The notes beneath the pieces are model-generated. The model was not told the DNA's origin and did no database searches. It was given only the letters and a program-made list of their open reading frames with translations. Of a DNA stretch of 64,000 nt, positions 14,469 through 34,831 are shown one piece after another (position 1 is the first letter of the stretch; every line of letters starts with the position of its first letter). The DNA comes from Acidobacteriaceae bacterium TAA 166 (GTDB lineage Bacteria; Acidobacteriota; Terriglobia; Terriglobales; Acidobacteriaceae), in the NCBI GenBank assembly GCA_000421065.1, contig ATWD01000001.1, forward strand, positions 3,092,001 to 3,156,000, given 5' to 3'. Position numbers and translations under genes: made by a program.

Positions 14469-14544
<76 letters not shown>

Positions 14545-16976: not shown

Positions 16977-18785
16977 ATGCAAAGAATGACGCTGAATTTA
17001 CTCAGAACAGGCTCGGCAGTCGCTCTATTTGCCGGAATGATGACACCTGTCTTCGGACAGGCTGCGAGCAAGACCTTTCTCGCGCTTCCCCCCGGAACTC
17101 TGCACCCGGGACAATACCTCGCCTTCGTCGCGGCGGTCCAATCCTCCACCCCGGTGACTGGCGGCACGGTGACGTTCAGCGATGGAGGAACCGCGGTCGC
17201 GAGCGCACCTGTTAACTCGGCAGGCATCGCCGGTGTCAGCATTCCCGGACTGTCGCAGGGAACGCACTCCATCTCAGCCAGCTACTCGGGCGCAAATGGT
17301 GTGGCTCCGAGCACGGCGGCTGCGACTGCGCTAGTGATCCAGCCCAACTCCGCTCCTCCCACGTTGACCTGCAACGCCTCTCCCGCAACGATCAATCCAG
17401 GAGATTCGACGACGATCACCGGGGCGGCGACGAGTCCCTCCAATCTTCCCGTAACGATGAGCTACACGACGACGGCCGGAACGATCACCGAGAACGGCGG
17501 TACGGCGACTCTCAACTCGGGAGGCGCGACCGGAACCATCCAGGTAACGTGCCATGCGATCGACAGCGTGGGCCAGACGACCTCCGCGACGGCAGCGGTG
17601 AACGTCAATGCGGGACAGGGCGAACAGGCACTTCCGGCGTTCAGCTTTCCGGATTCGGTTGGAGTCAACATCCATCTGACCTTTGGCGAAACGAAGTATT
17701 ACACCGACCTTCCCGGCGTGACGCAGTCGATGGTGAATCTCGGGATTCATCACTATCGCAGCGGCGTCGATAAGTATGTGGTGCCTCAGATCTATGCCAA
17801 CGCCGAGAAGCTGGCGCAGGCGGGCATCAAGGGCGACTGGCTGCTCGATGCCAACATGTCGGCCCAGAACATCAGCGATATCTATGCAAACGCGCCGAAC
17901 TCGGTGGAGGCCTACGAGGGACCGAACGAAGATGATAAAGATGTCGGGGCAACCCTACGGAACTTCATGGCGATGCTGCACGACACGGTTCACTCGAATC
18001 CGGCCACAGCTTCGATGCCGATCTACAATGCGACCATAAGCGATATCAACCTGATTCCAGCGATGGGCAACCTGGGTGCTTCTGTCGACTTCGGCAATAT
18101 GCACGACTATTACTATCCGCGCTTCCCAGAGACGCCCGCTTATGGCGGAGCCTTCTATAACTGCGGGTTGTATGGGACGATGTCGTTCAACGTGTGTGTG
18201 GCCAAGGTGAATGCGGTCGGCAAGCCGGTGGTCTCGACCGAGGCCGGCTACATCAGTGGGACGCAGTCGGACGCGGTCTTTGGCAAGTACATGACCCGCA
18301 TCCTGTTCGAGCACCTGTCGATGGGAGTGCCGCGCACGTACATCTACGAGCTGATGGATGAGCCGACCGGGCCGAGTTATGGGCTGGTCCATGGGGATTA
18401 CTCCCCCAAGCCGGCGTACACGGCGATCAAGAACCTGATCACGTTGTTCTCGGATGAGAACTTCACGACGCCGGGCAAGCTGGACTACTCGTTGACGGGG
18501 CAGACCAATAACGTTTACCACACCCTGTTCCAGAAGAAGGACGGAACCTGGATGATGGCTCTGTGGCTCGGAGTGGCGAGCGCGAACCCGGTCGCTCCGT
18601 ATGAAACGTACTCGATTCCGCCTCAGTCGGTCACGCTGAAGTCGAACACGCCGGTGGGAGCGGTGACGGTCTCGACGCTGGACGATAGTGGAAACATGAA
18701 CACGCAGCCTGCTTCGTCCGGAAACCCGGTGACGATTCCTGTAACCGATGCGGTTACAATCGTGTCCCTGGCCCCCGCCCACTAA
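16977..18785 (+). CDS. Secreted Ig-like/glycosidase-like protein, paralog 1
   Basis: A 602-residue exported protein. Signal peptide about residues 1-28 (GSAVALFAGMMTPVFGQ). Two Ig-like domains follow: Big_3-type GTVTFSDGGTAVASAPVNS...GTHSISASYSG (30-122) and a second at 125-212. The C-terminal module (215-602) looks like a (beta/alpha)8 glycosidase: DSVGVNIHL, NLGIHHYRSGVD, EAYEGPNEDD (Glu318), VDFGNMHDYYYPRFPETPAY, VVSTEAGYISG (Glu422) and TYIYELMDE. The NE and TE.G glutamates lie 104 residues apart, as in clan GH-A acid/base and nucleophile pairs. I cannot assign a GH number. Paralogs at 29426 and 33509 tie it to the EPS locus. A long structured leader precedes it. Confidence 0.8.
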   Translation: MQRMTLNLLRTGSAVALFAGMMTPVFGQAASKTFLALPPGTLHPGQYLAFVAAVQSSTPVTGGTVTFSDGGTAVASAPVNSAGIAGVSIPGLSQGTHSISASYSGANGVAPSTAAATALVIQPNSAPPTLTCNASPATINPGDSTTITGAATSPSNLPVTMSYTTTAGTITENGGTATLNSGGATGTIQVTCHAIDSVGQTTSATAAVNVNAGQGEQALPAFSFPDSVGVNIHLTFGETKYYTDLPGVTQSMVNLGIHHYRSGVDKYVVPQIYANAEKLAQAGIKGDWLLDANMSAQNISDIYANAPNSVEAYEGPNEDDKDVGATLRNFMAMLHDTVHSNPATASMPIYNATISDINLIPAMGNLGASVDFGNMHDYYYPRFPETPAYGGAFYNCGLYGTMSFNVCVAKVNAVGKPVVSTEAGYISGTQSDAVFGKYMTRILFEHLSMGVPRTYIYELMDEPTGPSYGLVHGDYSPKPAYTAIKNLITLFSDENFTTPGKLDYSLTGQTNNVYHTLFQKKDGTWMMALWLGVASANPVAPYETYSIPPQSVTLKSNTPVGAVTVSTLDDSGNMNTQPASSGNPVTIPVTDAVTIVSLAPAH

Positions 18786-18797
18786 CGACTCGTATCG

Positions 18798-18850
18798 CAA
18801 ACGATGCAGCCTGGAGAGGATCTCCAGACTGCATCGTTTGTAGTTTGGTT
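18798..18850 (+). terminator. Long hairpin terminator
   Basis: CAAACGATGCAG (18798-18809) pairs with CTGCATCGTTTG (18829-18840), with an inner CTGGAG/CTCCAG pair, making one long stem, then TAGTTTGGTTT. It lies between the convergent genes ending at 18785 and 18911. The T-run is weak. Confidence 0.72.
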
Positions 18851-18910
18851 TGCATGAGTGGGCTGCTTTTGCTCAGACGAGGTTCGTCGTTATCCGTTCA
18901 CGCGGCGCGC

Positions 18911-19498
18911 TCAATGGTTGAAGCTCAGCCGATAGACGATGCCGAGAGTAAGCGGCTTGGCGTAGATGTGTCCTGAATCCGTCACCGGCGTCGAGTATCT
19001 CTGAAATTGAAAGTCAGCCTTCACGGCGAAGTTTCGATTCAGGTCGTAGTCTGCCCCACCTCCGAAGGAGAGGATGTTCGACGGCGACTGAATATAGAGA
19101 AAGGTACTGGAGAGATCCGGATAACCGCCCTTTTGATAATGGATCGATCCCCGCCCGTAGAGCACATCCCCGTACGGATGGAGCCGACCATAGACCTTCT
19201 CGACCTTGAGGCCGCCCAGCAGGTTACGCTGACTGTCGATGTTGCCTTCGATGAAGGGGTAGGTTCCGCGGATCTCGAGCGAGGGGATGAAGGAATGGTG
19301 GGAAGGCAGGGTAAGATCGCCGCCCGCCGTGATGCCGAGGTTCTTTCCTCCATTCAGTCCTGTCCAGTTTCCGGTGAGTCCGGCGAAGCCCGAGAGCCGA
19401 AGCGTCTGGGTCGCCGCGGGAACCGCCTGGGGCCGTGCCACGGATGCGGGGAAGAGAAGAGCGACCAGGCCAAGGGTGAATTTAATTCCGGGCTTCAA
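18911..19498 (-). CDS. Outer-membrane beta-barrel protein (OMP_b-brl)
   Basis: A 195-residue protein. Signal peptide KPGIKFTLGLVALLFPASVA at the N-terminus, then alternating amphipathic strands typical of 8-stranded OmpA/OMP_b-brl porin-like barrels (TLRLSGFAGLTGNWT, LGITAGGDLTL, NFAVKADFQFQRY, PLTLGIVYRLSFNH). The last residues are aromatic/hydrophobic, close to the usual outer-membrane sorting end. TTG at 19498 is chosen because AGAGG lies 7-8 bases before it and the signal starts there; ATG codons at 19516 and 19531 lack a ribosome site. Such proteins are often structural or porin-like; no specific role can be read. Confidence 0.75.
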   Translation of the reverse strand: MKPGIKFTLGLVALLFPASVARPQAVPAATQTLRLSGFAGLTGNWTGLNGGKNLGITAGGDLTLPSHHSFIPSLEIRGTYPFIEGNIDSQRNLLGGLKVEKVYGRLHPYGDVLYGRGSIHYQKGGYPDLSSTFLYIQSPSNILSFGGGADYDLNRNFAVKADFQFQRYSTPVTDSGHIYAKPLTLGIVYRLSFNH

Positions 19499-19623
19499 AG
19501 GAGAACCTCTAAACATACAGCGTGTATCCATGTTCGACGTGTGCGGACGGTAGTTATCATGCTCTCATCCTCATGGTTTTTTCAAAAGATTTTCGTGTTA
19601 TTTCCGGCTCCCTCCGGCCCATT

Positions 19624-20496
19624 TCAGGAGGTCGGGGTCTTCAGCACAGCACCGTTCAGAGCTCCCTTACAGCTTCCTCCGGTGATCTCGATCGACTGAA
19701 AGTTCAGCATGTCGGCTGCCGGATCGGTGGTGCCGGTCATGACGACAGTCGCGTTGGGGTCGTTGGTGTCGATGCGCAGGGTGACGGCACTTCCGATGAT
19801 GGTTCCGTTGGGGGTGGAGATGGAGCCTCCCTGAAAGCAGGCGAATCCGCTGAAAGCTGCTGTGCCGCCGATCAGGAAGGTGCCGTCTCCGGCTCCAGGG
19901 GGAGTCTGGGTGAGCGAGAGTGAGATGCTCTGGCCGGCTGCTCCTCCTGTGACGGGACCGGAGTACTGACCGGTCACAGGAGCATATTCGACGCCGGTGA
20001 GGGTTCCCTTTGCTCCATCGGCGCAGCCTCCGCTCACGCTCCAGGAGCCGGAGATCTGGTTGCCGGCGGAGTTCGCGTTGGCGTTGATGGTCAGCAGCTG
20101 GCCGTTCACCGGGAACGAACGAAGCGAGACCTGGGTTCCGAGAACGGAGCCGTTCATCGGAAGAGGATTGGCGCTGTAGCAGCCGGTAGCCGCAGTCCCG
20201 AAGGAGCGGAGAGCGGCGGTGGTGAAGTTGCTGTCCGAGCCGCTGGTCCCCTGCTGGTCGAGAAAGCCGGCGAGGGTGGCGAAGGTCGACGGGCCCGCGG
20301 TCTGGGTCGACTGAAACTGCCAGTTGCCGGTGACGTTCACCGAAGGAGTCGCTCCCGGATTGCTTCCGCCTCCGTTGTCGCCTCCACTCCCGCTGCCTCC
20401 GCCTTTGGAGCTGCAGCCTGCGAGCAGGAGGAGCAGGCAGGACAGACAAGAGATCCGGGAGAGGTTGCTTCGCTGGTGAAGATTGAGCTTTCTCAT
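19624..20496 (-). CDS. Acidobacterial lipoprotein, paralog 1 of tandem pair
   Basis: A 290-residue lipoprotein: basic N-terminus, hydrophobic LSCLLLLLAGC lipobox, then a Gly/Ser-rich linker (SSKGGGSGSGGDNGGGS). The mature domain is all-beta, opening VTGNWQFQST with a later TLAGFLDQ, and containing SVLGTQVSLRSFPVNGQ, GSWSVSGGCADGAKGTLTGV and PADMLNFQSIEITGGSCKG. The same blocks in the same order appear in its neighbour at 20568 (TGNWQFQITPTGGPGSF; LSSIQVNGGSCPG), so the two arose by tandem duplication. The spaced cysteines may form disulfides. I know no function for the family. Confidence 0.75.
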   Translation of the reverse strand: MRKLNLHQRSNLSRISCLSCLLLLLAGCSSKGGGSGSGGDNGGGSNPGATPSVNVTGNWQFQSTQTAGPSTFATLAGFLDQQGTSGSDSNFTTAALRSFGTAATGCYSANPLPMNGSVLGTQVSLRSFPVNGQLLTINANANSAGNQISGSWSVSGGCADGAKGTLTGVEYAPVTGQYSGPVTGGAAGQSISLSLTQTPPGAGDGTFLIGGTAAFSGFACFQGGSISTPNGTIIGSAVTLRIDTNDPNATVVMTGTTDPAADMLNFQSIEITGGSCKGALNGAVLKTPTS

Positions 20497-20567
20497 GGTC
20501 GTTGTATGTGTTTCAAGTGATTCAAGCTGAAAGAGGATCGTTGATATCGAATTGGCTCGAGTATGTT

Positions 20568-21455
20568 TCATTGAGACCGCGGGAGGGATGCGGCTCCCAG
20601 GGAACCCGGGCAGCTGCCTCCGTTGACCTGAATGGAGCTGAGGGAGAGGGTGCTCGCCGCAGGGTCGATGGTTCCGGTCAGGACGACCTGGGGGTTGCTG
20701 GGGGCATCGGTGGTGAGCGTCAGGCTGACGGACTGTCCCACGATGTAGCTGGTCGGACTGGTGACGGTTCCACGTGTAAAGCATGGATTGCCGGTGAAGG
20801 CCGCGGTTCCCGTGACCAGGAAGGATCCATCGCCCTGCCCATCTGAACTCTGCTGGAGAGCCACCGAGATGTTTTTGGGAGGATTGCTGCCGGTGATCGC
20901 TCCGGAGTAGCTGCCGCTGAGCGAGGCATAGCGGACGCCGCTGAGGGTTCCGGCCGCGCCGTTGGCGCAGCCCCCGCCGATGCTGTAGGTCCCGGTCAGA
21001 TGGCTGAAGGTGGAGTCCTCGGTCGCGTTGATGGTGACGAACTGCCCGACGATAGAGAAGGAACGAAGATCGAGCTGGCTGGTCTTGACGGTTCCGGAAA
21101 GAGGAATGATTTCCGTTCCATCGAAGCAGGTCGCGGGAGTGGCCTGAAAGACGGCGGTGACGGGATCGCCGTCGACGGGAGTGCCTTCGGTCTCACTGAT
21201 GAACCCCGCGAGCGAGGTAAACGAGCCCGGACCGCCGGTGGGGGTGATCTGAAACTGCCAGTTGCCGGTAAGTCCGGTCGCGGGTCCAGGCCCGGTGGTC
21301 CTGTCGTCAGGGATCTTGATGGTGGCGCAGCCTGTCAGCACAACGGCAAGGCCAAGAAGAAGAACAGCGCGCCCCCTCGACAGTTGCGGCCGGGATCCAA
21401 ATTTATTTGTCTTATCGATCGAGCTTTTCATTGCGTGGCCGCTTTGATAGTTCAT
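20568..21455 (-). CDS. Acidobacterial lipoprotein, paralog 2 of tandem pair
   Basis: A 295-residue lipoprotein, lipobox LLLGLAVVLTGC. It shares the whole domain order with the gene at 19624: TGNWQFQ, FTSLAGFI, TSQLDLRSFSIVGQFVTINA, GTYSIGGGCANGAAGTLSGV, GDGSFLVTGTAAFTGNPCF and IQVNGGSCPGSLG. The ATG at 21455 has GGAG 5 bases upstream; an internal ATG at 21431 is possible. It is co-directional with its paralog 71 bp downstream, so probably co-transcribed. Sequence divergence is substantial, so the duplication is old. Function unknown. Confidence 0.75.
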   Translation of the reverse strand: MNYQSGHAMKSSIDKTNKFGSRPQLSRGRAVLLLGLAVVLTGCATIKIPDDRTTGPGPATGLTGNWQFQITPTGGPGSFTSLAGFISETEGTPVDGDPVTAVFQATPATCFDGTEIIPLSGTVKTSQLDLRSFSIVGQFVTINATEDSTFSHLTGTYSIGGGCANGAAGTLSGVRYASLSGSYSGAITGSNPPKNISVALQQSSDGQGDGSFLVTGTAAFTGNPCFTRGTVTSPTSYIVGQSVSLTLTTDAPSNPQVVLTGTIDPAASTLSLSSIQVNGGSCPGSLGAASLPRSQ

Positions 21456-21841
21456 GGAACTCCAGGTCCGGTGAAGATACAGGGAAGAAAGGAGCTATCT
21501 GTAACATGTGGTCCACACTGACTAGAGCATCCTACATGCCAAATCTATGCACAGAGCAAGAATTCAGGGCATCTATCGAACGCCTAAAAGTAACCATGGT
21601 GAAGTTACTATTCTTATTACCGATTTATTTCGAAACAACGTATCCTTGCTACGGAAAGCGCTTCAATCCTGAACGAAAGCGTACTTTGCCGGGTAGGTGG
21701 AAGTCTGGCTCGATCTCAACTTTCGGGCAGATTCTTCCGGGGAAAGATCGACGCGTATGTTTTGTAACTAATTCGTCTGCTGGAAACTGGGATGCAAGCG
21801 GTGGGCCCCGAGTTCCTTTTCTCGGAAGTGAGTTGGAATCC
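21456..21841 (+). promoter_or_regulatory. 386-bp intergenic region with GTTAC-type repeats
   Basis: No gene is seen. GTAACC (21590-21595) and GTTACT (21604-21609) stand 14 bp apart with an 8-bp spacer, followed by ATTACC at 21616. This is the same pitch as the three GTTAC repeats at 40677-40710. It forms the shared upstream region of the lipoprotein pair (minus) and the first gene of the EPS locus (plus). It is AT-richer than its surroundings. Confidence 0.4.
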
Positions 21842-23077: not shown

Positions 23078-23081
23078 AAGC

Positions 23082-24407
23082 TCAGGCGGCGTGAACTGTG
23101 GCGATCTCGGGCACGGGCAGCTGCGCCTCTTCGGTTTGACTCAACTGGGCGATCTGCCACTGGTTTTCGGCGAGCGCGCTTCCGCCGCAGGCCCAGAAGA
23201 TCGCTCCCGTGACGTTGACGAAGATGTTTCCTCCGACGTACTGGGCCAGCAGAGCGAAGCAGACCGAACGGAAGGCATGGACGTAGATATCCTGACCCTT
23301 CTTCCGCCCGGACTGGTAGATAAAGAAGGCGACTCCGCCTAAGTAGAGCGTGGTTCCCAGCCATCCCAGGGAGAGAATCGTCGCCAGAATACCGCTATCG
23401 ACCGCGAGGTTATGAACGGTCTCCTGATTCTTGAGGCCATGCCCAAAGGGGTCGTAAAGGATGACCCCCATCACGACCTTGTACATATCCTGGCGTTCGC
23501 GGAAGCTGCCGTCCTGCTTCAGGTCTCCCAGTGTCTTCAGGCGATCGCCGATCACGGGAGCCAGCTGCGGATTCTGCACGATGGGAAGGACGCAGACCGC
23601 GATCAGCACCATCGATGCCAGGATCTGCACCAGAAGCTTGGGACGCGCCTTTCTGAGCAGGAGCACCAGGCCGAGAATCCAGCCGAGCCACGCCGCGCGC
23701 ACGGCGCTGAGAAGAAGAGCCACATAGCCGACGATCGAAAACGGAATCTTGAGCGGGGAACGGGTCACGATCATCAGCAGAAGCGCTGTCGCCATGGCTC
23801 CCCCGAAGACGCCGGGAGCGTTCATGGTGCTCCAGACGCGCATCAGCATCGGCTCCGGCTGTCCGAAGCTGGGATCGATGAGGCCGGCTGAGATGTTTTG
23901 GAGCCAGAAGGCGTCCCACTTGGGAGCTACGAAGTACTGGTAGATCCCGTAGCTTCCCATCACTCCCGCGCCCCAGAGGAAGCTATTGAGGACGGTCTTG
24001 CGATTCTCCTCGGCGTATCTCCAGTCCATTGTTAGGTACATTCCGAACAACAGAGGAGCGCCCCAGTTGAAGAGTCCATAGATGACCTCGCCGGACGGAT
24101 TGAGGAGCATGCCTACGGTGAATCCATAGAGGACACCGGCGCCGCACAGGATGAAGGCTGGAGAGACCTGGATGGCACGCCGATGCGAGGGGACGATCAG
24201 GGAGAGGGCGGCGACCGACGAGACCAGATTCGGCGAGAGCAGGATGAGATTCTGATCGTGCCAGCCGAACTGCCAGTCGACCAGGCGACGGACCAGGGGC
24301 GCGACAAACCAGACCCAGATCGTGAAGCCTACATAGGCCGAAGGCCGGGTGAAGTACAGAAAAATCGCCACAAGGACAGCGAGAGCGGGAACGAGTACCT
24401 GGATCAA
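23082..24407 (-). CDS. O-antigen/EPS polymerase (Wzy/WaaL-like)
   Basis: A 441-residue inner-membrane protein with about twelve helices and a large periplasmic loop, the layout of Wzy/O-antigen ligase proteins. The loop and following helices show SGDRLKTLGDL-type text (GDRLKTLGDLKQDGSFRER), then YDPFGHGLKNQETVHNLAVDSG, where a His near HNL and the preceding Arg residues match the Wzy_C loop pattern. TTG start at 24407 with AGGA about 8 bases before it. It would polymerise lipid-linked repeat units delivered by the flippase at 36265. It is oriented against its neighbour at 21842. Confidence 0.82.
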   Translation of the reverse strand: MIQVLVPALAVLVAIFLYFTRPSAYVGFTIWVWFVAPLVRRLVDWQFGWHDQNLILLSPNLVSSVAALSLIVPSHRRAIQVSPAFILCGAGVLYGFTVGMLLNPSGEVIYGLFNWGAPLLFGMYLTMDWRYAEENRKTVLNSFLWGAGVMGSYGIYQYFVAPKWDAFWLQNISAGLIDPSFGQPEPMLMRVWSTMNAPGVFGGAMATALLLMIVTRSPLKIPFSIVGYVALLLSAVRAAWLGWILGLVLLLRKARPKLLVQILASMVLIAVCVLPIVQNPQLAPVIGDRLKTLGDLKQDGSFRERQDMYKVVMGVILYDPFGHGLKNQETVHNLAVDSGILATILSLGWLGTTLYLGGVAFFIYQSGRKKGQDIYVHAFRSVCFALLAQYVGGNIFVNVTGAIFWACGGSALAENQWQIAQLSQTEEAQLPVPEIATVHAA

Positions 24408-24543
24408 AGGAAGTCCTTTCCGCCCGCCGAAGGCCGCGTGGGGCTTGATTCAACCACGTAGTGCGTCTTCAGAATATCCATATCCAGTCCAATTGCATCT
24501 TCAATTGCATTCAGAGGGCCAAACTTTTTTGTCGCGAAACGAG

Positions 24544-25659
24544 TCATCCGGCGACCGTAGATAGCGTATCGACCGGCCCGAGGCCTTGAAATCTTTTCCC
24601 GAGGCGCATCGCGGGGCGTTCGATCGTGAGGTGGGTTCCGGAGGCGACGAGGAGCGAGATCGAGGTAAACAGCAGAAATGCAAGCGTGTTCCCCTTGCGC
24701 GCTCCGAAGAAAGCCAGCACCAGCGGATGAAGGAGATAGAGGGAGTAGCTGATCCTGCCGATCCACAGCAGGGCGGCCGGAAGCTTGCGGTGAGGACGTG
24801 CGAGAAGCCACAGAAAGAGGGCCCAGGCGGCTGCCCACGGCAGGATCACCGAGACGAAGGTGTAGTGCTCGAAGGTATCTGCTTTCTTCAGCGCGACGTA
24901 GTTCAGCCATGTGCCGGCAAAGACGAAGACCATGATTCCGCCCCCGAGCGCTGTCATTGCGTTGCCGGAGACCTTCGCCCGATAGAAGCGGTAGAGCACG
25001 GTTCCGGAGGCCAGGCAGACTACGTAGAAGAGGCCGGCCATCTCGACGCGGCGGTGCAGAGCGAGGGGAAGGCAGACTCCGATCGCTGCTGCTGCCGCGA
25101 GCACCATCCAGCAGATTGTGTAGGAGTAACGCAGCAGATTCTTCGCGCTCAGCGCCGAGCAGACGACGTAGAAGACCATCTCGATGGTCAGGGTGTAGTA
25201 GAGGCCGATCGCATAAGGGATCCTGAGTAGACCTTCGAGCATGGTCAGGTTGACGAGTGAATTTCTTGCCAGGTGTGGAGTGAAGTCAGGCTCGAGGGCT
25301 CCGCTGACCCCCAAGCTGTAGAGAAGAAGCGCGGCGCCGAGGCTGAACCAATACAGAGGATAGAGGCGGAAGAAGCGGAGAATCCAGAATCGCCGCAGGC
25401 CGGGTCTGCCCTCGAGGCTGAAGGGGATGACGAACCCGCTGACCAGGAAGAAGCAGGCCAGGCCGAACTTGCCGAAGCTGAAGACCGTGTGCGTCATGGC
25501 CGCGAAGTTCGGGATGAAGTGATAGCCGCCATGTTCGATCAGGACGGCGACCGCGGCGATCGCTCTCAGGCCGTCCAGAAACTCGAGCCGGACGGTTCGG
25601 GCTCTGTCCTGTTGCTTGGGATGGGTCTCTAAGTTGCCGGCAGATAAGGTTCCGGTCAT
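24544..25659 (-). CDS. Acyltransferase 3 family (OafA/YrhL-like)
   Basis: A 371-residue membrane acyltransferase that adds acetyl or similar groups to surface glycans. The family start RLEFLDGLRAIAAVAVLIEHGGYHF includes the conserved His-Gly pair after the first helix, followed by FGLACFFLVSGFVIPFSL (FFxxSG) and RFFRLYPLYWFSLG (R-x10 aromatic). About ten helices follow, ending ISYSLYLLHPLVLAFF and LTIERPAMRLGKR. The ATG at 25659 is chosen for GGAG six bases upstream; the frame can be read back to 25734. In the EPS context, O-acetylation of the polymer is the likely job. It is divergent from the sugar transferase gene. Confidence 0.92.
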   Translation of the reverse strand: MTGTLSAGNLETHPKQQDRARTVRLEFLDGLRAIAAVAVLIEHGGYHFIPNFAAMTHTVFSFGKFGLACFFLVSGFVIPFSLEGRPGLRRFWILRFFRLYPLYWFSLGAALLLYSLGVSGALEPDFTPHLARNSLVNLTMLEGLLRIPYAIGLYYTLTIEMVFYVVCSALSAKNLLRYSYTICWMVLAAAAAIGVCLPLALHRRVEMAGLFYVVCLASGTVLYRFYRAKVSGNAMTALGGGIMVFVFAGTWLNYVALKKADTFEHYTFVSVILPWAAAWALFLWLLARPHRKLPAALLWIGRISYSLYLLHPLVLAFFGARKGNTLAFLLFTSISLLVASGTHLTIERPAMRLGKRFQGLGPVDTLSTVAG

Positions 25660-25958
25660 ATCCAGCTCCAAGGATTCTGAAAGATCAATTTCTTTCTCAG
25701 TTACTCGGAAGTTACAAATAATTGCGATTTGCAAGCTGGGCTCTTTGGGCCCATTCAGTTACGGTCCGATGATTTTTTATAGAGAGAGGTCTCCTCCATC
25801 GGTCTCTTCACTATAACTTGGGCAAAAAAAGGCGACCGGGCCTGGTAACCAATGTTGGCCGCGCTGAGAGGAAGGGACTTAGGACGGCTAATTGCGGTTG
25901 AGTGAGGAGTTAGTGGGAAGAGATCGCGCAAAGGGCATAGGCCAAAAGTGGGATCGTA

Positions 25959-26002: not shown

Positions 26003-26183
26003 AAGCTTGAATCTTATTTTCCGGTTTTTGTGGTTGGGAAGTTACAGCGCATTCAGACTTCAACGGCAGGGGCCTGTCTTCTGGGAGAAAGAGCAGGGAT
26101 GCACGACCGCTCGCAACTCCCCTGCGAGGAAGCTGGCGTTTATTCGAACGCACGAGAAAGATCTGCACAGACGAGGACAGATT

Positions 26184-27665
26184 ATGGCGATTCGACCAGA
26201 ATGGCGTGCTGCATATTCCAACGCGACCTCCGCAGCGGTCAACGATCTTCCCGCTCTTGGAAAGGGCCAGAGACTGCGTCTCTCCTTTACCAACTACAGG
26301 ACGTTGTTCGCGATTGGTCTGGATTTTCTCTCCATCTCGCTGGGGTGGAGCGTTGCGCTGATCATTTACACGATCTTTACCGGAAAATACGTTAGCAACG
26401 AATCGCTGAAGTTATTCCTTTTTTCGCTGCAATACACGGCCGCCTTCATCCTCTTCGGCCGGGTTCAGTTCCTTTACAGCTATGACCACAGCCTGCTGCA
26501 GATTCGCAGCACGGCGTGCATTTTGCGCGTCTCCTGCTTCTCCTTCTTTCTCGTTACGATAGAATCCTTCTTCGGCAAGATGCTGATTCCGCGTCTTCTG
26601 CTGGTCCTGTGCTGGGTCTTCATCACCCTGTTCGTTCTTTTGCAGAAGCATGCCACGCGGCGTCTTCTGGCCCATGCGGGAGCGAAGAACGCAGGCGTGA
26701 GGAATGCCCTGATCGTCGGCGCGGGATCGGAGGCGCGTCGCGTCTTTTCGTTCCTTCATAACTCGCCCGATCTCGAGCTGCACCCGGTGGGCTTCTTTCA
26801 GGATGGTCCGGGCGAGTCGCGCGTCGTCTACAGCCACGACTACCAGTTCAAGCACTACGCTCCGGTCTACGGTGGAAGCCTGGACCGGGCTTTCCTGGAG
26901 CAGCACGAGATCTCCGACATCTTTGTCGCCGATCCGAGCCTCTCTCCGCAGAAGATCGTCGAGGTCTCGCTGCTGGCGTCGGAGTGCCAGACCCAGCTCT
27001 CCTTTGCCGGATCGGTTCATCCTCATCTAAACGGCAAGCCTACCAACTACCGGATGATCGATGGCCTGGTGGTGAGCTCGTTTGCGATGGCAAAAGACCA
27101 GAACCTGGGCTACGAGCTGGTGAAGAGGATCTTCGACTTCATCATCGCCTCGTGCATGCTCCTGGTCTCGCTTCCGATCTTTGCCGCGGTGGCGGTATGG
27201 ATCAAGATGAGCTCCGAGGGCCCGATCTTCTTCAAGCAGGAGAGGATTGGGCGCGATGGCGTGCCGTTCAAGATGTACAAGTTCCGGAGCATGTATGTGA
27301 CGGCGCCGAAGTATGGCCGCTCGCCGGAGAGCTCGGACGATCCCCGCATCACCCCGGCCGGACGTTTCCTGCGCAAGACCAGCCTGGACGAGCTTCCGCA
27401 GGTGCTGAATGTTCTAACGGGGGATATGTCGGTCGTGGGCCCGCGGCCGGAGATGCCATATGTGGTGGCCGAATATGGTCCGCAACAGATGCAGCGCCTG
27501 AAGGTGCAGCAGGGAATCACGGGAATCTGGCAGCTGAGCGCGGATCGCAAGTTCGCCATCCACGACAGCATCGAGTACGACCTCTACTACATCGAGAATC
27601 GTGGATTCTTCCTCGACCTCGCCATCCTCCTTCACACGGCTGCCTTTGCCATGAAGGGAATTTAG
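26184..27665 (+). CDS. EPS polyprenyl glycosylphosphotransferase (WbaP/WcaJ-like)
   Basis: A 493-residue enzyme that transfers a sugar-1-phosphate to undecaprenyl phosphate, the first step of repeat-unit synthesis. N-terminal half: four to five helices (residues 35-165) and a CoA-binding-like domain (ALIVGAGSEARRVFSFLHN). C-terminal half: the phosphotransferase domain, with helix RIFDFIIASCMLLVSLPIFA, then GPIFFKQERIGRDGVPFKMY, KFRSM, DDPRITPAGRFLRKTSLDEL, and PQVLNVLTGDMSVVGPRPEM. ATG at 26184 has CGAGGACAG nine bases before it; the frame extends upstream to 26007 but without coding sense. It begins the plus-strand EPS run with the GT4 gene 65 bp downstream. Confidence 0.94.
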   Translation: MAIRPEWRAAYSNATSAAVNDLPALGKGQRLRLSFTNYRTLFAIGLDFLSISLGWSVALIIYTIFTGKYVSNESLKLFLFSLQYTAAFILFGRVQFLYSYDHSLLQIRSTACILRVSCFSFFLVTIESFFGKMLIPRLLLVLCWVFITLFVLLQKHATRRLLAHAGAKNAGVRNALIVGAGSEARRVFSFLHNSPDLELHPVGFFQDGPGESRVVYSHDYQFKHYAPVYGGSLDRAFLEQHEISDIFVADPSLSPQKIVEVSLLASECQTQLSFAGSVHPHLNGKPTNYRMIDGLVVSSFAMAKDQNLGYELVKRIFDFIIASCMLLVSLPIFAAVAVWIKMSSEGPIFFKQERIGRDGVPFKMYKFRSMYVTAPKYGRSPESSDDPRITPAGRFLRKTSLDELPQVLNVLTGDMSVVGPRPEMPYVVAEYGPQQMQRLKVQQGITGIWQLSADRKFAIHDSIEYDLYYIENRGFFLDLAILLHTAAFAMKGI

Positions 27666-27730
27666 CCGATCGGAAACCGTATCGGTTACAAATCCGCCGC
27701 GGTCGTTTCGCGGCCTGATCTTCGGGGAAG

Positions 27731-28897
27731 ATGCTTATGTCCAAGACCGTCTTTGTGCACGACAACTTCGTTCAGGCCGGGGGTGGGGAGCGCGTAGCGG
27801 AGGAGCTGGCCCGCTGCCTTCCGGATGCGGATATCGTCAGCACCGTAGTGGTTGAGGAACGTCTCTCTCCGTATGTGAAGCAGAGAGGCGTGACGACCAC
27901 CTGGCTGCAGCAGTTCCCGGCGATGAAGCGCTTCTACCGCCACTACTTTCTCTTCTATCCCTTCGCCGCCCGCAGCCTCGATCTTTCGAAGTACGACAAG
28001 ATCGTCAGCAGCTGCTATGGCTTCGCGAAGATGATTCGCAAGCCGCAGGGCGCGGTTCATATCTGCTACTGCCATACCCCGACCCGATGGATCTGGAGAG
28101 CGGAGGACTACTTCGGCCGCGAGAACTTCGGCAGGACGACGCGTTCCCTCCTGAACGCTCTGATCTCGCGCATGAAGAAGCTCGATCTGGATGCCGCCGA
28201 TCAGGTGGATTTCTTCATCGCCAACTCGCAGGTGGTCAAGGAGAGGATCAGGAAGTACTACGGTCGGGACTCCATCGTGATCTACCCTCCGATTCAGGTG
28301 AACCGCTTCGAGACCTCGGACGAGGTTGAGGACTACTACTTGGTGCTCTCGCGTCTGGTGGCCTACAAGAGGATTGAGCTTGCCGTCCAGGCCTGCGAGA
28401 GACTTGGTCGCAAGCTGAAGATCGTCGGTCAGGGGCCGGACCGCAAGCGCCTGGAGCAGCTGGCGGGTAAGAATACGGAGTTTCTGGGACGTCTCTCCGA
28501 CGCCGAGACGACCCGCCTGCTCTCCCGCTGTCGCGCCCTGATCTTCCCCGGAGAAGAGGACTTCGGTCTGACTCCTCTCGAAGCGAGCGCCTCCGGTCGC
28601 CCAGTGGTCGCCTATGGTGGGGGGGGGGCTTTGGATACGGTCATTCCCGGGCTCAACGGGGTTCACTTTTCGGAGCCGACAGTCGATTCTCTGGCCGGCG
28701 CGATTGAGCGCATGGAAGAGGGAAGCTGGGACAGTGCGGCGATTCGTCAGCACGCGGAGAAGTTCTCGGTGGAGTCCTTTGCGCGTCAGTTCAACGCTGC
28801 GGTGCAGAACTTTTCGGGCAGGAAGGCAGGAGGAGCGGAACATGTTCCTGGCCATGCCGCAGGTGCGCTCTCGCTGGAGAGCGCGGTTCGTTCCTGA
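27731..28897 (+). CDS. GT4 family glycosyltransferase with internal G10 tract
   Basis: A 388-residue GT-B fold enzyme. N-terminal acceptor side: TVFVHDNFVQAGGGERVAEEL, then CYCHTPTRWIWR. C-terminal Glycos_transf_1 domain: YYLVLSRLVAYKRIELAVQA, LKIVGQGPDRKRLEQLA, and the donor site FPGEEDFGLTPLEASASGRP (E-x7-E). It is similar to WbaZ/mannosyl-type transferases in EPS loci. The codons for VVAYGGGGALDTV include ten consecutive G (28619-28628), so a slip of one base would truncate the protein close to the donor site. Start at 27731; MSK at 27737 is the alternative. Confidence 0.92.
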   Translation: MLMSKTVFVHDNFVQAGGGERVAEELARCLPDADIVSTVVVEERLSPYVKQRGVTTTWLQQFPAMKRFYRHYFLFYPFAARSLDLSKYDKIVSSCYGFAKMIRKPQGAVHICYCHTPTRWIWRAEDYFGRENFGRTTRSLLNALISRMKKLDLDAADQVDFFIANSQVVKERIRKYYGRDSIVIYPPIQVNRFETSDEVEDYYLVLSRLVAYKRIELAVQACERLGRKLKIVGQGPDRKRLEQLAGKNTEFLGRLSDAETTRLLSRCRALIFPGEEDFGLTPLEASASGRPVVAYGGGGALDTVIPGLNGVHFSEPTVDSLAGAIERMEEGSWDSAAIRQHAEKFSVESFARQFNAAVQNFSGRKAGGAEHVPGHAAGALSLESAVRS

Positions 28898-29052
28898 GTC
28901 CGCTGCAGGCGGGGATTAATTGCACCGGCGGGTCTTCGACTATGCAAAATAGTTAACATAAAGTACTTTAAAGTGGTATTTTATTTCCCTAGGCGGCTCG
29001 TTAAGCTGCTGTTGCCGGATGTTGCAGAGATACGGCCAGAGGGTGAAGTAAG

Positions 29053-29232
29053 ATGACAATGTTTGCGGTTTTCATGGTGGGTACCTGGGTTGGATTGGCG
29101 TTTGGCCTTCTTCTTGGTGGTTTCGGCCGTATGCTCCGGCAGACAAGTGAAAAGCGGCAGCAAGAGCGCGCTTCGAGTCACTCCGGGCATCATGGCCTGG
29201 TGATCGCGGCTCGCGGGGCTCAGCGCGGCTAA
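29053..29232 (+). CDS. Small single-helix membrane protein (59 aa)
   Basis: A short gene with one N-terminal helix (FAVFMVGTWVGLAFGLLLGG) followed by a basic tail (GRMLRQTSEKRQQERASSHS). GGGTGAAG stands 5-12 bases before the ATG and a good terminator follows at 29262, so it has its own expression signals. It lies between the GT4 gene and the second glycosidase-like protein. I know no family for it. Small bitopic proteins of this kind often modulate larger membrane enzymes, but this is only a suggestion. Confidence 0.6.
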   Translation: MTMFAVFMVGTWVGLAFGLLLGGFGRMLRQTSEKRQQERASSHSGHHGLVIAARGAQRG

Positions 29233-29261
29233 GTTTTTCTTCTAGAAGATCCATTCTTTGG

Positions 29262-29300
29262 ACAAGCGGCTCCCTTTACAGGGGAGCCGCTTGTGTTTGT
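29262..29300 (+). terminator. Intrinsic terminator
   Basis: ACAAGCGGCTCCC (29262-29274) pairs perfectly with GGGAGCCGCTTGT (29282-29294), 7-nt loop, then GTTTGTT. It closes the small gene at 29053 and isolates the gene at 29426. Confidence 0.88.
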
Positions 29301-29406
29301 TCGCAGGGGGGATGACTTCCCGCATCTGTGTCATACGCGCTCCCGACAGGGTGATCTCGCGTTACCACTGAAGGGGAATTCATTGAATGGCCGTGGTTGG
29401 GTAAGT

Positions 29407-29426
29407 TAAGTCTCACGTGAGACTTA
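29407..29426. promoter_or_regulatory. 20-bp perfect palindrome at the start codon
   Basis: TAAGTCTCACGTGAGACTTA is a perfect inverted repeat whose last base is the A of the ATG at 29426. Its size fits a dimeric repressor operator. In mRNA it would hide the ribosome site of the gene. No ordinary Shine-Dalgarno is seen upstream of the ATG. Confidence 0.6.
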
Positions 29427-31639
29427 TGAAAACCCTCCCCATCGCGCCCTCGGCGCAGATCCAGCACCCCTGTGTGCCAAATCGCCTGAAGAAGTCTTCG
29501 TCTTCGCGACTAGGTCTGCTTAGTCTTTTTGCAGCTCTCACCCTCTCCCCGGTCTGGTCTGAAGCCGCTCCTCAGCCGACGGCCGGGACGACCGTCAGTA
29601 TCGTCGTTCCTCTGAAAGCCCCTCCACTCATCAGCAAAACCACGCTGATGGCGACCCCTACCCCCGCGAAGGCTGGAACGCCGGTGACGATCTCCGCCCA
29701 GGTCACGGCGAATGCCGGTACTGTAACCGGTACGGTCACATTTGCGGATGGAGCCCATGTGTTCGCCACGGTTCCGGTCGCTTCGGGCAAGGCGGCTGCG
29801 GTGATGTCCTCGCCGAGTACGGGGACGCATGCGTTGACGGCAACGTTTTCGGGATCGGGCAAGCTGCCTGGAAGTGCAGCCTCGCTCTCGCTGGTGGTTG
29901 CAGGGCCGGTTGCGACTTCAACCTCCCTGGTGGCGCAGCCTGCTTCAGCCATGACGGGATCTCCGATCACTCTGACAGGAACTGTGACGGCTGCCTCTGG
30001 ACAGGCTTCAGGAACGGTGACCTTTCTGGATGGAAGCGTGGTTCTGGGCAGCCAGCCGGTGAATTCAGCGGGCAAGGCGCAGCTCTCTCTCACAACGCTC
30101 AAGCAGGGGACGCATAGCATTCGGGCAAGTTACGGCGGCGCGGCGGCGTTGGCGGCCAGCGTTTCATCTCCAATAGCGGTGAGTATTACGCCGCGGCCCT
30201 CTGCTCCGACGATTCAATGTTCGGGTGCTCCTTCGTCCGTCAATGCAGGCGATCTCGCTATGATCTCAGCGGTTGCCTCCAGCCCCTCGGGCCGTTCCGT
30301 GAGCGTGAGTTTCACCTCGACCGAGGGGGAGCTTACCGCCAAGGGAAGCACGGCAACGCTGAACACCTCCGGGATTCAGGCCGGCAACGTGCAGGTGACC
30401 TGCAAGGCGACCGATGATCTCGGCCAGACAGCTTCGGCGGTGGCTTCGATCTGGGTCAACGGCGGCAATGGAGAGCAGGCTCTGACCGCATACAGCTTTA
30501 CCGACTCCATCGGCGTCAATATTCATCTTCACTCCGGAGAGACCCCCGTGGTGCAGAACTTCCCGGGCTTCTTCAAGGCGATCGTCGCGCTCGGTGTCCA
30601 CCACTATCGCAACGGGATCGATCCGTACGCCGGGCCGTTCGAGTATCAGAGCGCGGAGACGCTGGCGGCGGCGGGCATTAAGGCGGACTGGCTGATCGAC
30701 GGCCACGACAGCCCGGACAACATCAATGCGATCTACGCCAATGCACCGAACTCCATCGAGAGCTTTGAGGGCCCGAACGAGGATGACGTCGATGCCGGAC
30801 CGGTGCTGTCTACGTTCACCCAGATGCTCTATGCGACGGTGCGCAGCAACTCCAAGACGGCAAAGATTCCCATCTATGCCCCGACGCTCACCGATCTCGG
30901 CAAGATCGCCACGCAGGCGACCTTCGGCTCCGCCGTCGACTTCGGAAACATGCACGACTACTACTATCCCCGCTATCCGGAGACTCCGGCCTACGGCGGA
31001 TCGTTCTTCAACTGCGGCGCTTACGGCACGATGGCTTTCAATATCTGCGTCTCCCGGTTTCTCGCCCCGGGGAAGCCGGTTGTTTCGACGGAGACCGGAT
31101 TTGTGAGCGGAACGCAGTCCGATGAGGTGCTAGGCCGTTACATTACCCGCACTCTCTTCCTCCATCTGGGAATGGGCGTGATGCGAACGTATCTCTATGA
31201 ATTCGTGGACGATTCGGCGCAGCCCGGATACGGCCTGATGCGCTCGGACTTCACCCCCAGGCCGGCTTACACGGCGATCCAGAATCTGGTGAAGCTCTTT
31301 GGCGACATCAGCTATGGAACCCCTGGCAAGCTCCAGTACACGTTGACGGGCTCTATCTCCAATGTCCAACATGTGCTCTTTCAGAAGAGCGATGGAACCT
31401 ACATGATGGCGATCTGGCTGGGAGTTCGCAGCGCGAATGAGGTGGCCCCCTACGAGAACCTCAGCGTCCCAGCGCAGACGGTGTCGATCTCTACGTCCAC
31501 TCCGGTGGGAGCTGTCACCATTGATGCACTGGATGACGAAGGAAATATCTCGAGCGAGTTGGGAGCGACCTCGGGAGCGGGAACTCCTGTTACGGTTACC
31601 GATCGGATTACGATCGTTTCTTTCGCCGCCTCACACTAA
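29426..31639 (+). CDS. Secreted Ig-like/glycosidase-like protein, paralog 2
   Basis: A 737-residue exported protein. Signal region with helix LGLLSLFAALTLSPVWSEA (about 29-47). Three Ig-like domains: two Big_3-type (about 70-160 and 163-255, each with GTVTF-[AL]DG) and one at 258-345. The C-terminal glycosidase-like module (350-737) parallels paralog 1 block by block: DSIGVNIHLHSGET, HHYRNGID, SFEGPNEDD (Glu452), DFGNMHDYYYPRYPETPAYG, VVSTETGFVSG (Glu556), RTYLYEFVDD and YMMAIWLGVRSAN. The two glutamates are 104 residues apart, exactly as in paralog 1. It sits in the centre of the EPS locus under a palindromic site. A polymer-cleaving role is inferred. Confidence 0.82.
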   Translation: MKTLPIAPSAQIQHPCVPNRLKKSSSSRLGLLSLFAALTLSPVWSEAAPQPTAGTTVSIVVPLKAPPLISKTTLMATPTPAKAGTPVTISAQVTANAGTVTGTVTFADGAHVFATVPVASGKAAAVMSSPSTGTHALTATFSGSGKLPGSAASLSLVVAGPVATSTSLVAQPASAMTGSPITLTGTVTAASGQASGTVTFLDGSVVLGSQPVNSAGKAQLSLTTLKQGTHSIRASYGGAAALAASVSSPIAVSITPRPSAPTIQCSGAPSSVNAGDLAMISAVASSPSGRSVSVSFTSTEGELTAKGSTATLNTSGIQAGNVQVTCKATDDLGQTASAVASIWVNGGNGEQALTAYSFTDSIGVNIHLHSGETPVVQNFPGFFKAIVALGVHHYRNGIDPYAGPFEYQSAETLAAAGIKADWLIDGHDSPDNINAIYANAPNSIESFEGPNEDDVDAGPVLSTFTQMLYATVRSNSKTAKIPIYAPTLTDLGKIATQATFGSAVDFGNMHDYYYPRYPETPAYGGSFFNCGAYGTMAFNICVSRFLAPGKPVVSTETGFVSGTQSDEVLGRYITRTLFLHLGMGVMRTYLYEFVDDSAQPGYGLMRSDFTPRPAYTAIQNLVKLFGDISYGTPGKLQYTLTGSISNVQHVLFQKSDGTYMMAIWLGVRSANEVAPYENLSVPAQTVSISTSTPVGAVTIDALDDEGNISSELGATSGAGTPVTVTDRITIVSFAASH

Positions 31640-31857
31640 AAAACATACAAATTGTTACTCGGAGGAGATGGATTGTCGTAATGAATGTTTACGGCACTCT
31701 ATCTCCCGCGAGATAATAAGGTAGCTTACTTTTTCGACCATTTCTCTGGACACGTTCTTGGATAACGATGGGTAAGTCTGTTTGTCGGGTTTTTTAATAA
31801 GTAATTATCTTTAGAATCTCCCGTCACGTTGATCTAGATCGTCGAGAGTGGAAACCC
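31640..31857 (+). other. 218-bp gene-free spacer
   Basis: AT-rich. It contains GTTACT near 31654 and a T-run (GGGTTTTTTAAT) near 31788, but no convincing hairpin before it. No real gene is seen. It probably carries the promoter of the gene at 31858. Confidence 0.4.
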
Positions 31858-33501
31858 ATGACTCCTATACAGGACGTGCAGATCTTTCAAGAACCTTACT
31901 TCAAAGAGTCAGAGAAGCCCGGCTTCTCCGGATGGATAACAGCACTGCTCCCCTGGATCGCGATCGCGGGCCTGCTTCTGATGATCGTGGGGCCTGCCCT
32001 TCTGGTTCCGGCCGAAGACGCGACCATCCTTTTTCAATACAGCGACAACTGGGCATCGACAGGACAGATCACCTACTACGCCGGAGGTCCGAGGGTAGAA
32101 GGTGCAACGGACTTCCTGTGGATGGCCTTGCTGACTGTCTTTCGGCTGGTGCATATTGAGCCCTTTTACGCGACGGCTCTGCTCAATGTCCTGTCCGCCT
32201 GCGCGATCGCTTCCCTGATTCTTCTGCTTGCGGGCAAGAAGGTTACGTGGAAGGCGATGCTGGTTCCGTTGGGACTGGTGATGATGGCGCCTCAGCTCGG
32301 AGCGGCTCTAGCCGGCTTCTCTGTGCTGCCCTTCACAGCACTCATTCTTGCCTGCGCCTATCTCTTCTACAAGGAAAAAGATGCGGCTCTGGCGGTCACC
32401 TGCCTTCTGCTCTGCCTCTTCCGTCCGGATGGAGTGGTCTTTGCGTCTCCGATGATCGCCCTTCGCGTCTTTGGCGAAAAGACGGGGGTCTTGAAGAAGA
32501 TCGGAACTTACCTTCTGTTGTTCGTAGTTCCTGGTCTGATCTACTTCGTCTGGCGCTGGAAGTACTTCGGCCAGATCATGCCGTTGCCGTTCCTGGTGAA
32601 GTCCGATACGCCGCGCTTCCTGGGCATTGCGCTGGGAACCAGCAATATCGACATCCTGAAGTATCTCGCGTTCGATATCGTCTTCCTCGCCCTGACCCTG
32701 GGCACGAAGCTGAAGGAGCGGATGAACCTTCTGCTTCTGATCTCGATCGGGATCGTACCGACGCTCTTCTATCTCACGATGCGTCTGGATCAGGACATCG
32801 CCGATCGCTTCTTCACCTACCTGCTGGTGTGCAGCGCCGTGCTGCTGGCGATTAATTGGGATCGCCTGCGCGACACGCAATCCCGCGCGATCTCAACCTT
32901 CGCCGTGCTGTGGTGCCTGTTGCTGAGTTTTGCGTGGCTCTCGGGCATGTCTCGGTTTATCTCAGACGGATACAAGAACATCATCGTCTCGATCGCGAAG
33001 GAGCTGAAGGATGTTCAGCCCAACGGAACCCTGGCGCTCAGCGAGGCCGGCCGCATCGCCTACTTCTCGCGCTGGCCCACCACCGACCTGTGGGGACTGA
33101 ATACGCCCGAGTTCGCGCATCATCTCTTCGCGCCGGCCGATGTGGCTGCGGTCTCTCCGGATCTTCTGGTCCTCTACTATCCCGAGGCTAATCATGATTG
33201 CCGGTTCAAGCCGGGCTGGAACACTCCTTACACGACGCGCGTCTGGACCAACCTCGCGAAGAACGTCATCACCGGGCTTCACGACACGAACAACTACGAT
33301 CTGTGGATGGTTCCTTCGAGCGGCGTACTGCGCCGCGAAATCCATGGGAACCAGCCTGGGGCTGGCGAGTATCAGTGCTGGTTCGTCAAGAAGACCTACG
33401 CCGGCCATGACCAGGTGGTGAATATTCTCGTTCGCCATGCAGCGATGCTGGAGGCCGACTTCGCTCGCGTCCGTGCCGAGTTGCCGGCCGAGACGAAGTA
33501 G
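31858..33501 (+). CDS. GT-C family membrane glycosyltransferase (AftB/GT89-like)
   Basis: A 547-residue protein with about ten helices and a C-terminal periplasmic domain. The first loop holds the GT-C signature: PAEDATILFQYSDNWASTGQ, then ITYYAGGPRVEGATDFLWMA. This strongly recalls the acidic D-x-x-I..RY..N..G..L...GERVEGYT-LW pattern of AftB-like arabinofuranosyl- and related polyprenyl-linked transferases, here with EDA as the likely acidic motif. The tail (residues 370-547) is soluble (LALSEAGRIAYFSRWPTTDLWGLN). It would add sugars to the polymer on the periplasmic side. A glycosidase-like lipoprotein gene starts 7 bases after its stop. Confidence 0.75.
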   Translation: MTPIQDVQIFQEPYFKESEKPGFSGWITALLPWIAIAGLLLMIVGPALLVPAEDATILFQYSDNWASTGQITYYAGGPRVEGATDFLWMALLTVFRLVHIEPFYATALLNVLSACAIASLILLLAGKKVTWKAMLVPLGLVMMAPQLGAALAGFSVLPFTALILACAYLFYKEKDAALAVTCLLLCLFRPDGVVFASPMIALRVFGEKTGVLKKIGTYLLLFVVPGLIYFVWRWKYFGQIMPLPFLVKSDTPRFLGIALGTSNIDILKYLAFDIVFLALTLGTKLKERMNLLLLISIGIVPTLFYLTMRLDQDIADRFFTYLLVCSAVLLAINWDRLRDTQSRAISTFAVLWCLLLSFAWLSGMSRFISDGYKNIIVSIAKELKDVQPNGTLALSEAGRIAYFSRWPTTDLWGLNTPEFAHHLFAPADVAAVSPDLLVLYYPEANHDCRFKPGWNTPYTTRVWTNLAKNVITGLHDTNNYDLWMVPSSGVLRREIHGNQPGAGEYQCWFVKKTYAGHDQVVNILVRHAAMLEADFARVRAELPAETK

Positions 33502-33508
33502 GTATCTT

Positions 33509-34792
33509 TTGAGACTCCAGGCTGGGAAGAGATCGTTTACGCGGCAACGCCTCGCGGCATGGACGTTATTGATGGCTTCTCTGGTCGCGGCGCCGGGCTG
33601 CAAGACACAGACCCTGAAGGCCGAGCCGACGATGAGCGCGGATGCCTTCGTCGATTCGATCGGGATCAACGTGCATCTTCACAACGGAGACATGATCTAC
33701 GGGAACTTTCCGGTGATCTCCGCGGCCCTGCATGATCTGGGTGTGCGGCATACTCGGGATGGCCTGATCCATACGACCTGGCAGGATTACTACGCAAGAC
33801 ACGCGCAGCTCGCCCAAAGCGGGATCCACTGCCTCTTCATCACCGGAACCGGCGACACGCCGGAGGATTTGCTCGACTTCACCCAAAAGGTTCACGGAGC
33901 GGTCGAAGGGTTCGAGGCACCGAACGAATACGACGCCGCGGGCGATCCCGACTGGGCTCCGAAGCTTTCGGCTTACATGCCGCGATTGAAATCCGCGACC
34001 GCATCGATTCCTTCCGAACGAAAGATCCCCGTCGTCGGTCCCGCACTGGTCACTCCCGATGCGGACAAAAAGGTTCCCGGACTCAGCCCAAGCTTTGACG
34101 AGGCCAACATGCACAACTATTTTGGAGGCCACAACCCGGGGACCCCAGGGTGGGGAGAGAACGGGTACGGCTCCATCCAATGGAATATGGCGCTCGCTGA
34201 AAAGGCATGGGGAGCGAAGCCCATCGTCACCACCGAGACGGGATATCTCTCCGACCCTCACGTTCCGCAGGGCGTCGGCGAGCGGGCGCAAGCCATCTAC
34301 ACGCCGCGTCTCTTTCTGGAGCAGACCCTGCATGGCGTCCAGCGGACATGGCTCTTCGAATTGGCCGACGGAGGGAATCAGAGCTCCTATGGGCTGTTGC
34401 GCAGCGATGGCTCCCGCAAGCCTGCCTTCTTCACTCTGGAGAAGATGATCCGGGTTCTCTCCGACACCGGTCCAACATTTGCCGCTTCTCCCTTGCCGAT
34501 GGAGCTGAAGGGAACAACGCCCGAGCTTCATCACCTTCTTCTTCAGAAGCGAAATGGAAGGTATCTGCTGGCGTACTGGCTTGAGGTTCCCGCGCTCGAT
34601 GCTTCGGAGAAGGAGACAGGAGCGAACACCGTGCCCTTCACGCTTCACACCGCAGTGCCGATCCAAAATGCGCTTGTGTGGAGCGTCGATCCCGCAGCCT
34701 CGAACGACGGCACGCGCGTAAAGGCGGGAGCGGAGCTTACTCTCAATGCTTCGCAGTGGGTCTCGATCCTGGAGTTCGAGATCAAGCACTGA
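33509..34792 (+). CDS. Glycosidase-like lipoprotein, paralog 3
   Basis: A 427-residue version without Ig domains. TTG at 33509 gives a lipoprotein signal (TRQRLAAWTLLMASLVAAPGC, Cys31); a longer frame from 33437 would overlap the upstream gene. The module follows paralogs 1 and 2: DSIGINVHLHNGD, LGVRHTRDGL, EGFEAPNEYD (Glu140), ANMHNYFGGHNPGTPGWG, IVTTETGYLSD (Glu243), RTWLFELADGG and RYLLAYWLEV. Spacing of the glutamates is 103. Only 7 bp separate it from the GT-C gene, so the two are co-transcribed and probably translationally coupled. It likely acts at the inner or outer membrane surface on the same glycan. Confidence 0.8.
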   Translation: MRLQAGKRSFTRQRLAAWTLLMASLVAAPGCKTQTLKAEPTMSADAFVDSIGINVHLHNGDMIYGNFPVISAALHDLGVRHTRDGLIHTTWQDYYARHAQLAQSGIHCLFITGTGDTPEDLLDFTQKVHGAVEGFEAPNEYDAAGDPDWAPKLSAYMPRLKSATASIPSERKIPVVGPALVTPDADKKVPGLSPSFDEANMHNYFGGHNPGTPGWGENGYGSIQWNMALAEKAWGAKPIVTTETGYLSDPHVPQGVGERAQAIYTPRLFLEQTLHGVQRTWLFELADGGNQSSYGLLRSDGSRKPAFFTLEKMIRVLSDTGPTFAASPLPMELKGTTPELHHLLLQKRNGRYLLAYWLEVPALDASEKETGANTVPFTLHTAVPIQNALVWSVDPAASNDGTRVKAGAELTLNASQWVSILEFEIKH

Positions 34793-34831
34793 CCTCGTGC
34801 ATATTACCCATGGTTTTTGGGGGGGAGGTCA

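Follow-up and report, generated by a model that had tools for sequence, protein, structure and literature searches.

The window, that is, the whole 64,000-nucleotide stretch of Acidobacteriaceae bacterium TAA 166 DNA that was analysed, contains three genes (A, B and C) that share a C-terminal module and sit in a Wzx/Wzy-type exopolysaccharide (EPS) locus. Between A and C the locus encodes, besides Wzy_C, a PF02397 initiating sugar transferase, an acyltransferase and a GT4-type glycosyltransferase; past C, two further GT4 genes flank those for the flippase, the Wza-type export protein and Wzz. PF02397, Polysacc_synt, Wzy_C, Poly_export and Wzz occur together in the locus, each above its Pfam cut-off. 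In systems of this kind, Wzx flips and Wzy polymerises the repeat unit, while Wzz and the export protein set the chain length and carry the polymer out. The features, in window coordinates, are:

16977..18785 (+), gene A: exported protein (export read from the N-terminus) with an Ig-like N-terminal part and a PslG-like module
about 17091-17336 (+), Big_3_5 domain in gene A (Pfam)
17607..18782 (+), PslG-like glycosidase module of A; Glu codons 17928-17930 (acid/base) and 18240-18242 (nucleophile), roles by position
23082..24407 (-), Wzy_C protein, O-antigen ligase/polymerase family (Pfam)
24544..25734 (-), Acyl_transf_3 acyltransferase
26007..27665 (+), EPS-initiating sugar transferase PF02397 (Pfam; TIGR03025 above cut-off)
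27731..28897 (+), GT4-type glycosyltransferase, GT4a
29426..31639 (+), gene B: predicted exported protein (again from its N-terminus) carrying the module and two Big_3_5 domains, plus a PKD-like stretch below threshold
30467..31636 (+), PslG-like module of B, with Glu codons at 30779-30781 and 31091-31093
31858..33501 (+), membrane protein that may be a GT-C glycosyltransferase
33509..34792 (+), gene C: putative lipoprotein with the module, TTG start
33533..34789 (+), modelled part of gene C; Glu codons 33926-33928 and 34235-34237
35078..36268 (-), GT4-type glycosyltransferase
36265..37602 (-), flippase, Wzx type (Polysacc_synt)
37645..38298 (-), polysaccharide export protein, Wza type (Poly_export, SLBB)
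38300..38899 (-), conserved locus protein without a Pfam family
38903..40507 (-), Wzz chain-length protein
40755..42023 (+), GT4-type glycosyltransferase

Searches of positions 16500-35200 returned 7 promoter-like sites (5.3 in shuffled sequence) and 17 terminator-like sites (14.6 in shuffles), neither a clear excess, so these sites do not set operon limits. The strongest terminator-like site of the region is a 15-pair hairpin at 29262-29294, between GT4a and B. The gene at 38300-38899, between the Wza-type and Wzz genes, has homologues at the equivalent position of at least five related loci (L033, L037, L038, L042 and L044). Two adjoining lipoprotein-like genes without a Pfam family occupy 19624-20784 and 20568-21455 (-), and homologues of the latter occur in pairs next to the EPS loci of genomes G177 and G154. 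A GH18-family protein is encoded at 13125-14495 (-), just outside the EPS locus.

Architecture of A, B and C

The initial annotation, made from the letters of the window, had recognised the common C-terminal module, and this is borne out: it spans about 390 residues, with E of about 1e-48 in pairwise BLASTP of C against the other two (A-C: 28.0% identity across 404 aa, E 4e-48; B-C: 28.8% across 406 aa, E 8e-49). All six of the motifs listed there are present in each protein, and the glutamates of the PNE and TE motifs are indeed 104, 104 and 103 residues apart in A, B and C. A and B are 53.6% identical across 582 aa, and since this alignment takes in the Ig-like part, B seems to be a duplicated A that has acquired one more Ig-like domain. 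The three genes are the only full copies of the module found by a search of their own genome, where the one further match is partial (16 bits, E 0.009).

The anchoring parts had been described as two to three Ig-like domains in two of the proteins and a lipoprotein fused by a 7-bp spacing to a GT-C gene. Big_3_5 domains exceed the Pfam cut-off once in A and twice in B, whereas the PKD-like stretch of B scores 17 bits against a cut-off of 23.5, so the proposed domain count is plausible but partly sub-threshold. The 7-bp gap is exact, with the stop of the upstream gene at 33501 and the TTG of C at 33509. The two assignments on either side of that gap proved weaker than claimed: the upstream gene has a single NCBIfam match to GT-C proteins at 26 bits against a cut-off of 200, and the putative lipobox of C, VAAPGC, departs from the usual form. 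Alternative starts are GTG 29417 for B and ATG 33437 for C, the latter of which would overlap the upstream gene.

The module of A, B and C matched no Pfam family and no NCBIfam, and among the 64 members of a module alignment no NCBIfam family was found in the module. Eight known Pfam families each matched a single member of the 64 and were rejected as names for the module, the glycosidase ones scoring E 0.056 (GH17) and 0.085 (Glyco_hydro_cc). PF01229, a profile that may miss PslG itself, matched none of the 64.

Predicted fold, catalytic glutamates and nearest structures

Enzymes of clan GH-A have a TIM barrel with an Asn-Glu acid/base at the end of strand beta-4 and a nucleophilic Glu in beta-7, and work by a retaining mechanism. 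The models predicted for C (pLDDT 93.9) and A (pLDDT 95.6) have a secondary structure of a TIM-barrel catalytic domain followed by a beta-sandwich, and both match GH-A structures in a structure search. On these models the TIM barrel, foreseen in the initial annotation, and the assignment to clan GH-A are near certain. In the model of C, Glu132 comes after strand 124-128 and Glu235 lies inside strand 231-237, and one of the module glutamates aligns with the nucleophile of PslG. Whether the two glutamates face one pocket was tested in part, by position alone, and the positions fit GH-A, with the PNE glutamate after beta-4 and the TE glutamate in beta-7.

Conservation was evaluated in an alignment of 277 rows (230 retrieved proteins and 46 genome modules; the rows are not independent and some occur twice). 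The acid/base column holds 273 Glu, one Gly and three gaps, i.e. Glu in 273/274 filled rows, and the nucleophile column 272 Glu, one Gly and four gaps (272/273). Both glycines belong to the same row, L046 of genome G174, a 1075-residue open frame at 7551-10775 (-) in which PNE has become PSG, TE has become TG and the His-Tyr motif is gone, although the remainder can be aligned. This module, 23 kb from a PF02397 gene, is apparently a dead glycosidase copy as judged from its residues.

The nearest solved structures among the matches listed, by fold and by profile, are PslG of Pseudomonas aeruginosa (GH39; PDB 4zn2, 5bx9, 9g17) and GH39wh2 of Bacteroides cellulosilyticus (PDB 5jvk), and the PslG/GH39 precedent suggested at the outset was thus well chosen. 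PslG aligns structurally with the module over its full length at 16-18% identity; 5jvk, a gut bacterium's enzyme with an extra N-terminal beta-sandwich, shows 17-18% identity. Profile matches to 5jvk (E 3.9e-11 and 9.8e-12) and to PslG (E 6.5e-10 and 2.2e-10) span about 100-130 residues only, and a single-sequence match to PslG is not significant (E 0.095). The beta-glucuronidase of Acidobacterium capsulatum (PDB 8b0d and others), which we take to be a GH79 enzyme, falls about 6 and 5 Z units under the best GH39 match and is without a reported sequence-profile match to the module. The beta-sandwich after the TIM barrel in both module models is also the GH39 architecture as given in PMC6933502. 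The module is therefore best called PslG-like, in clan GH-A and near GH39, with membership in GH39 not proven.

Published work describes PslG as a retaining endo-beta-glucosidase belonging to the psl cluster (PMC11912335), and reports that loss of PslG or of its activity alters the location of Psl and leaves long chains of cells (PMC9075953). The window differs from PslG in having three copies, with Ig-like or lipoprotein N-termini. A functional precedent is the hydrolase domain of PelA, an EPS-locus hydrolase whose activity gives rise to secreted, low-molecular-weight Pel polymer according to PMC9894940; a PelA structure is absent among the structural matches listed.

Distribution, linkage to EPS loci and possible duplication

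Gene C has 1,389 homologues at E 0.001 (7,997 scored candidates) and module A has 204 (3,338 scored candidates). Some profile match at E 0.001 occurs in 33 of the 150 genomes drawn from the family, but only nine, the own genome included, have matches over 100 bits; the own genus contributes 10/60 genomes with a match, and a draw across the phylum 43/395, six of them over 200 bits. The domains fused to the module vary among relatives (Ig-like, ricin-B lectin, fn3, cadherin-like and GH115_C). C alone against genome contigs gave 18 pattern matches and no relative. A phage origin found no support in an alignment-based scan of viral contigs (12 pattern matches, no relative), a miss at that sensitivity only. 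As judged by titles and the beginnings of abstracts, mostly outside subscription journals, no paper describing the module was found. On contig 1 of genome G570 (Defluviicoccus sp. SSA4), intact and broken copies of the module, in several frames, form two arrays (about 2196000-2203300 and 4287700-4292500), with no PF02397 gene close by.

Linkage was counted in 14 Acidobacteriota genomes selected from the genome searches, with 29 modules in 15 clusters, a set that includes the window, two close relatives (G128 and G148) and fragmented assemblies. A PF02397 gene lies within 15 kb of 18/29 modules, compared with 0.78 expected under uniform placement, and of 9/15 clusters (0.41 expected); with the window removed, the figure is 8/14 clusters. 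Outside the count were weaker copies in G020 and G101 and another full module in G070, a 242-bit match on contig 36, which has no PF02397 match; adding the latter gives 18/30 and 9/16. Modules have genes of the window's locus as neighbours in G504, G177, G154, G128, G148, G119 and G039, and partly in G174 and G043; the shared synteny extends to Wzy, Wzx, Wza, Wzz and GT4a. Close homologues of GT4a (at least 48% identity) occur in 7/150 genomes, and the module is present in six of these seven compared with 3/143 others (Fisher p 4e-8, with kinship ignored and the identity cut chosen after viewing the list).

Farther afield, we considered 13 named records, mostly from other phyla, which are the 14 loci of an alignment-based contig scan minus L052 (the same genome as G070). 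EPS genes accompany the module in six, namely Pararhizobium mangrovi, four MAGs of Actinomycetota and one of Acidobacteriota; in the other seven, some of them on short contigs, the stretch fetched contains nothing homologous to the EPS genes of the window. The possibility that relatives lie mostly away from polysaccharide loci, raised in the initial annotation as a potential objection, thus fails for the Acidobacteriota and retains some weight for the named records. Orphan copies do occur in Acidobacteriota. The one in Terriglobus roseus adjoins arginine biosynthesis genes, about 24 kb from the nearest PF02397, and an ABC-2 permease and recG lie in the flank of the one in Acidobacterium sp. 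S8 (G070). The G192 copy (L040) neighbours a GH5 cellulase, and of the three G119 copies one (L041) neighbours a galactose-oxidase-like protein. For the G204 copy, the distance to a PF02397 gene is 42 kb.

Two or three modules are present in 8/15 clusters. In a module tree of 45 rows, A and B are sisters (100/100), and copies of one locus also group together in G504 (three copies, 99/93), G154 (three, 95/87), G167 (two, 100/100), L054 (two, 99/77) and L056 (two out of three, 97/93). An adjacent module pair is common to G128 and G148 (100/100), and the G119 orphan is sister to the same genome's EPS-locus copy (100/100). Exceptions are C, which stands at a distance from A and B; the G177 copies, not all of which are sisters; and the two in the G119 locus, which are separate from each other. 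The tree fits repeated duplication inside loci, with concerted evolution of same-locus copies as a possible alternative.

Proposed role and alternative explanations

We propose, at a probability of roughly 65%, that A, B and C are exported GH-A glycosidases, distant kin of the PslG-like branch of GH39, that cut the polymer of the surrounding locus. The observations behind this reading are the shared module, the predicted TIM barrel and beta-sandwich, the nearest structures, the near-invariant glutamates and the recurrent EPS linkage; it agrees with the initial annotation, whose module, motifs, spacing, fold and hint at PslG were all upheld. From these we infer active enzymes with a division of labour: all three would cut the heteropolysaccharide of the locus, most likely as retaining, endo-acting enzymes. 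C, which is probably tethered to a membrane, would shorten or remove chains while they are exported or soon afterwards, and A and B, with their Ig-like domains, may act on the secreted outer polymer to give shorter, released or remodelled material. Points against this reading are the orphan copies, the seven named records without homologues of the window's EPS genes in the fetched stretch, the low identity to PslG and the absence of both glutamates from L046.

Some of these points would suit scavenging enzymes that digest the polysaccharides of others (plant, fungal or bacterial) for food, with the EPS neighbourhood a by-product of the mobility of surface and carbohydrate genes. The orphans beside a GH5 cellulase and a galactose-oxidase-like protein, the relatives fused to lectin, fn3 or GH115_C domains and the carriage of a three-copy EPS locus by a plasmid are consistent with such a role, which we nevertheless consider unlikely: linkage to PF02397 is far above uniform placement, synteny takes in the polymerase, flippase and export genes, and no transporter or other catabolic gene was recognised between A and C. 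A retaining GH-A site also permits transglycosylation, by which the proteins would transfer or attach EPS chains to other chains or to an acceptor at the surface with no hydrolysis. The fold and catalytic pair would be the same, the Ig-like domains of A and B suit a surface location and there is a weak profile match to the beta-1,3-glucanosyltransferase 4wtp (E 0.014 and 0.007); however, PMC6933502 and PMC11912335 describe PslG and 5jvk, the nearest structures, as endoglycosidases, and we regard transglycosylases as distinctly unlikely. L046, which has kept the rest of the module after losing both glutamates and the His-Tyr pair, would be a model for non-catalytic polymer-binding proteins on a dead glycosidase fold; given that all but one of the filled rows retain each glutamate, A, B and C included, this explanation is very improbable for the window.

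Returning to polymer-cutting glycosidases, a bolder form of this reading takes up the earlier suggestion of a new polymer-specific family. The module would be a family of its own in GH-A, dedicated to the polymer made next door, gained by EPS loci in separate lineages and then duplicated; copies would diverge with the polymer, so that module sequence could label polymer type, and L046 would be a polymer-binding derivative. We put this forward tentatively, as possible but short of even odds.

A module with no Pfam or NCBIfam name is thus tied, often in two or three copies, to EPS loci of Acidobacteriota, Actinomycetota and an alphaproteobacterium. The reason for the presence of hydrolases in polysaccharide gene clusters is called an open question in papers on PslG and PelA (PelA: PMC9894940), both on one pathogen. 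Because relatives sit beside similar EPS genes in several other bacteria, polymer-trimming enzymes in EPS loci may be more general than that one pathogen suggests.

The idea could be tested in a soil bacterium through the plasmid locus of Granulicella tundricola. Contig 3 of G177 corresponds to plasmid pACIX904 of strain MP5ACTX9 (115,493 bp), typed by PLSDB as mobilizable, so such an EPS locus may travel. For two other Granulicella strains, EPS has been isolated and its sugars listed (PMC5259719). The plasmid carries, in the stretch L063 (NC_015059.1, 60000-109000), an EPS locus of the Wzx/Wzy type that includes dTDP-rhamnose genes. Of its three module genes, two are annotated as RICIN domain-containing and one as hypothetical, and a fragment of a fourth module lies at 103716-103922.
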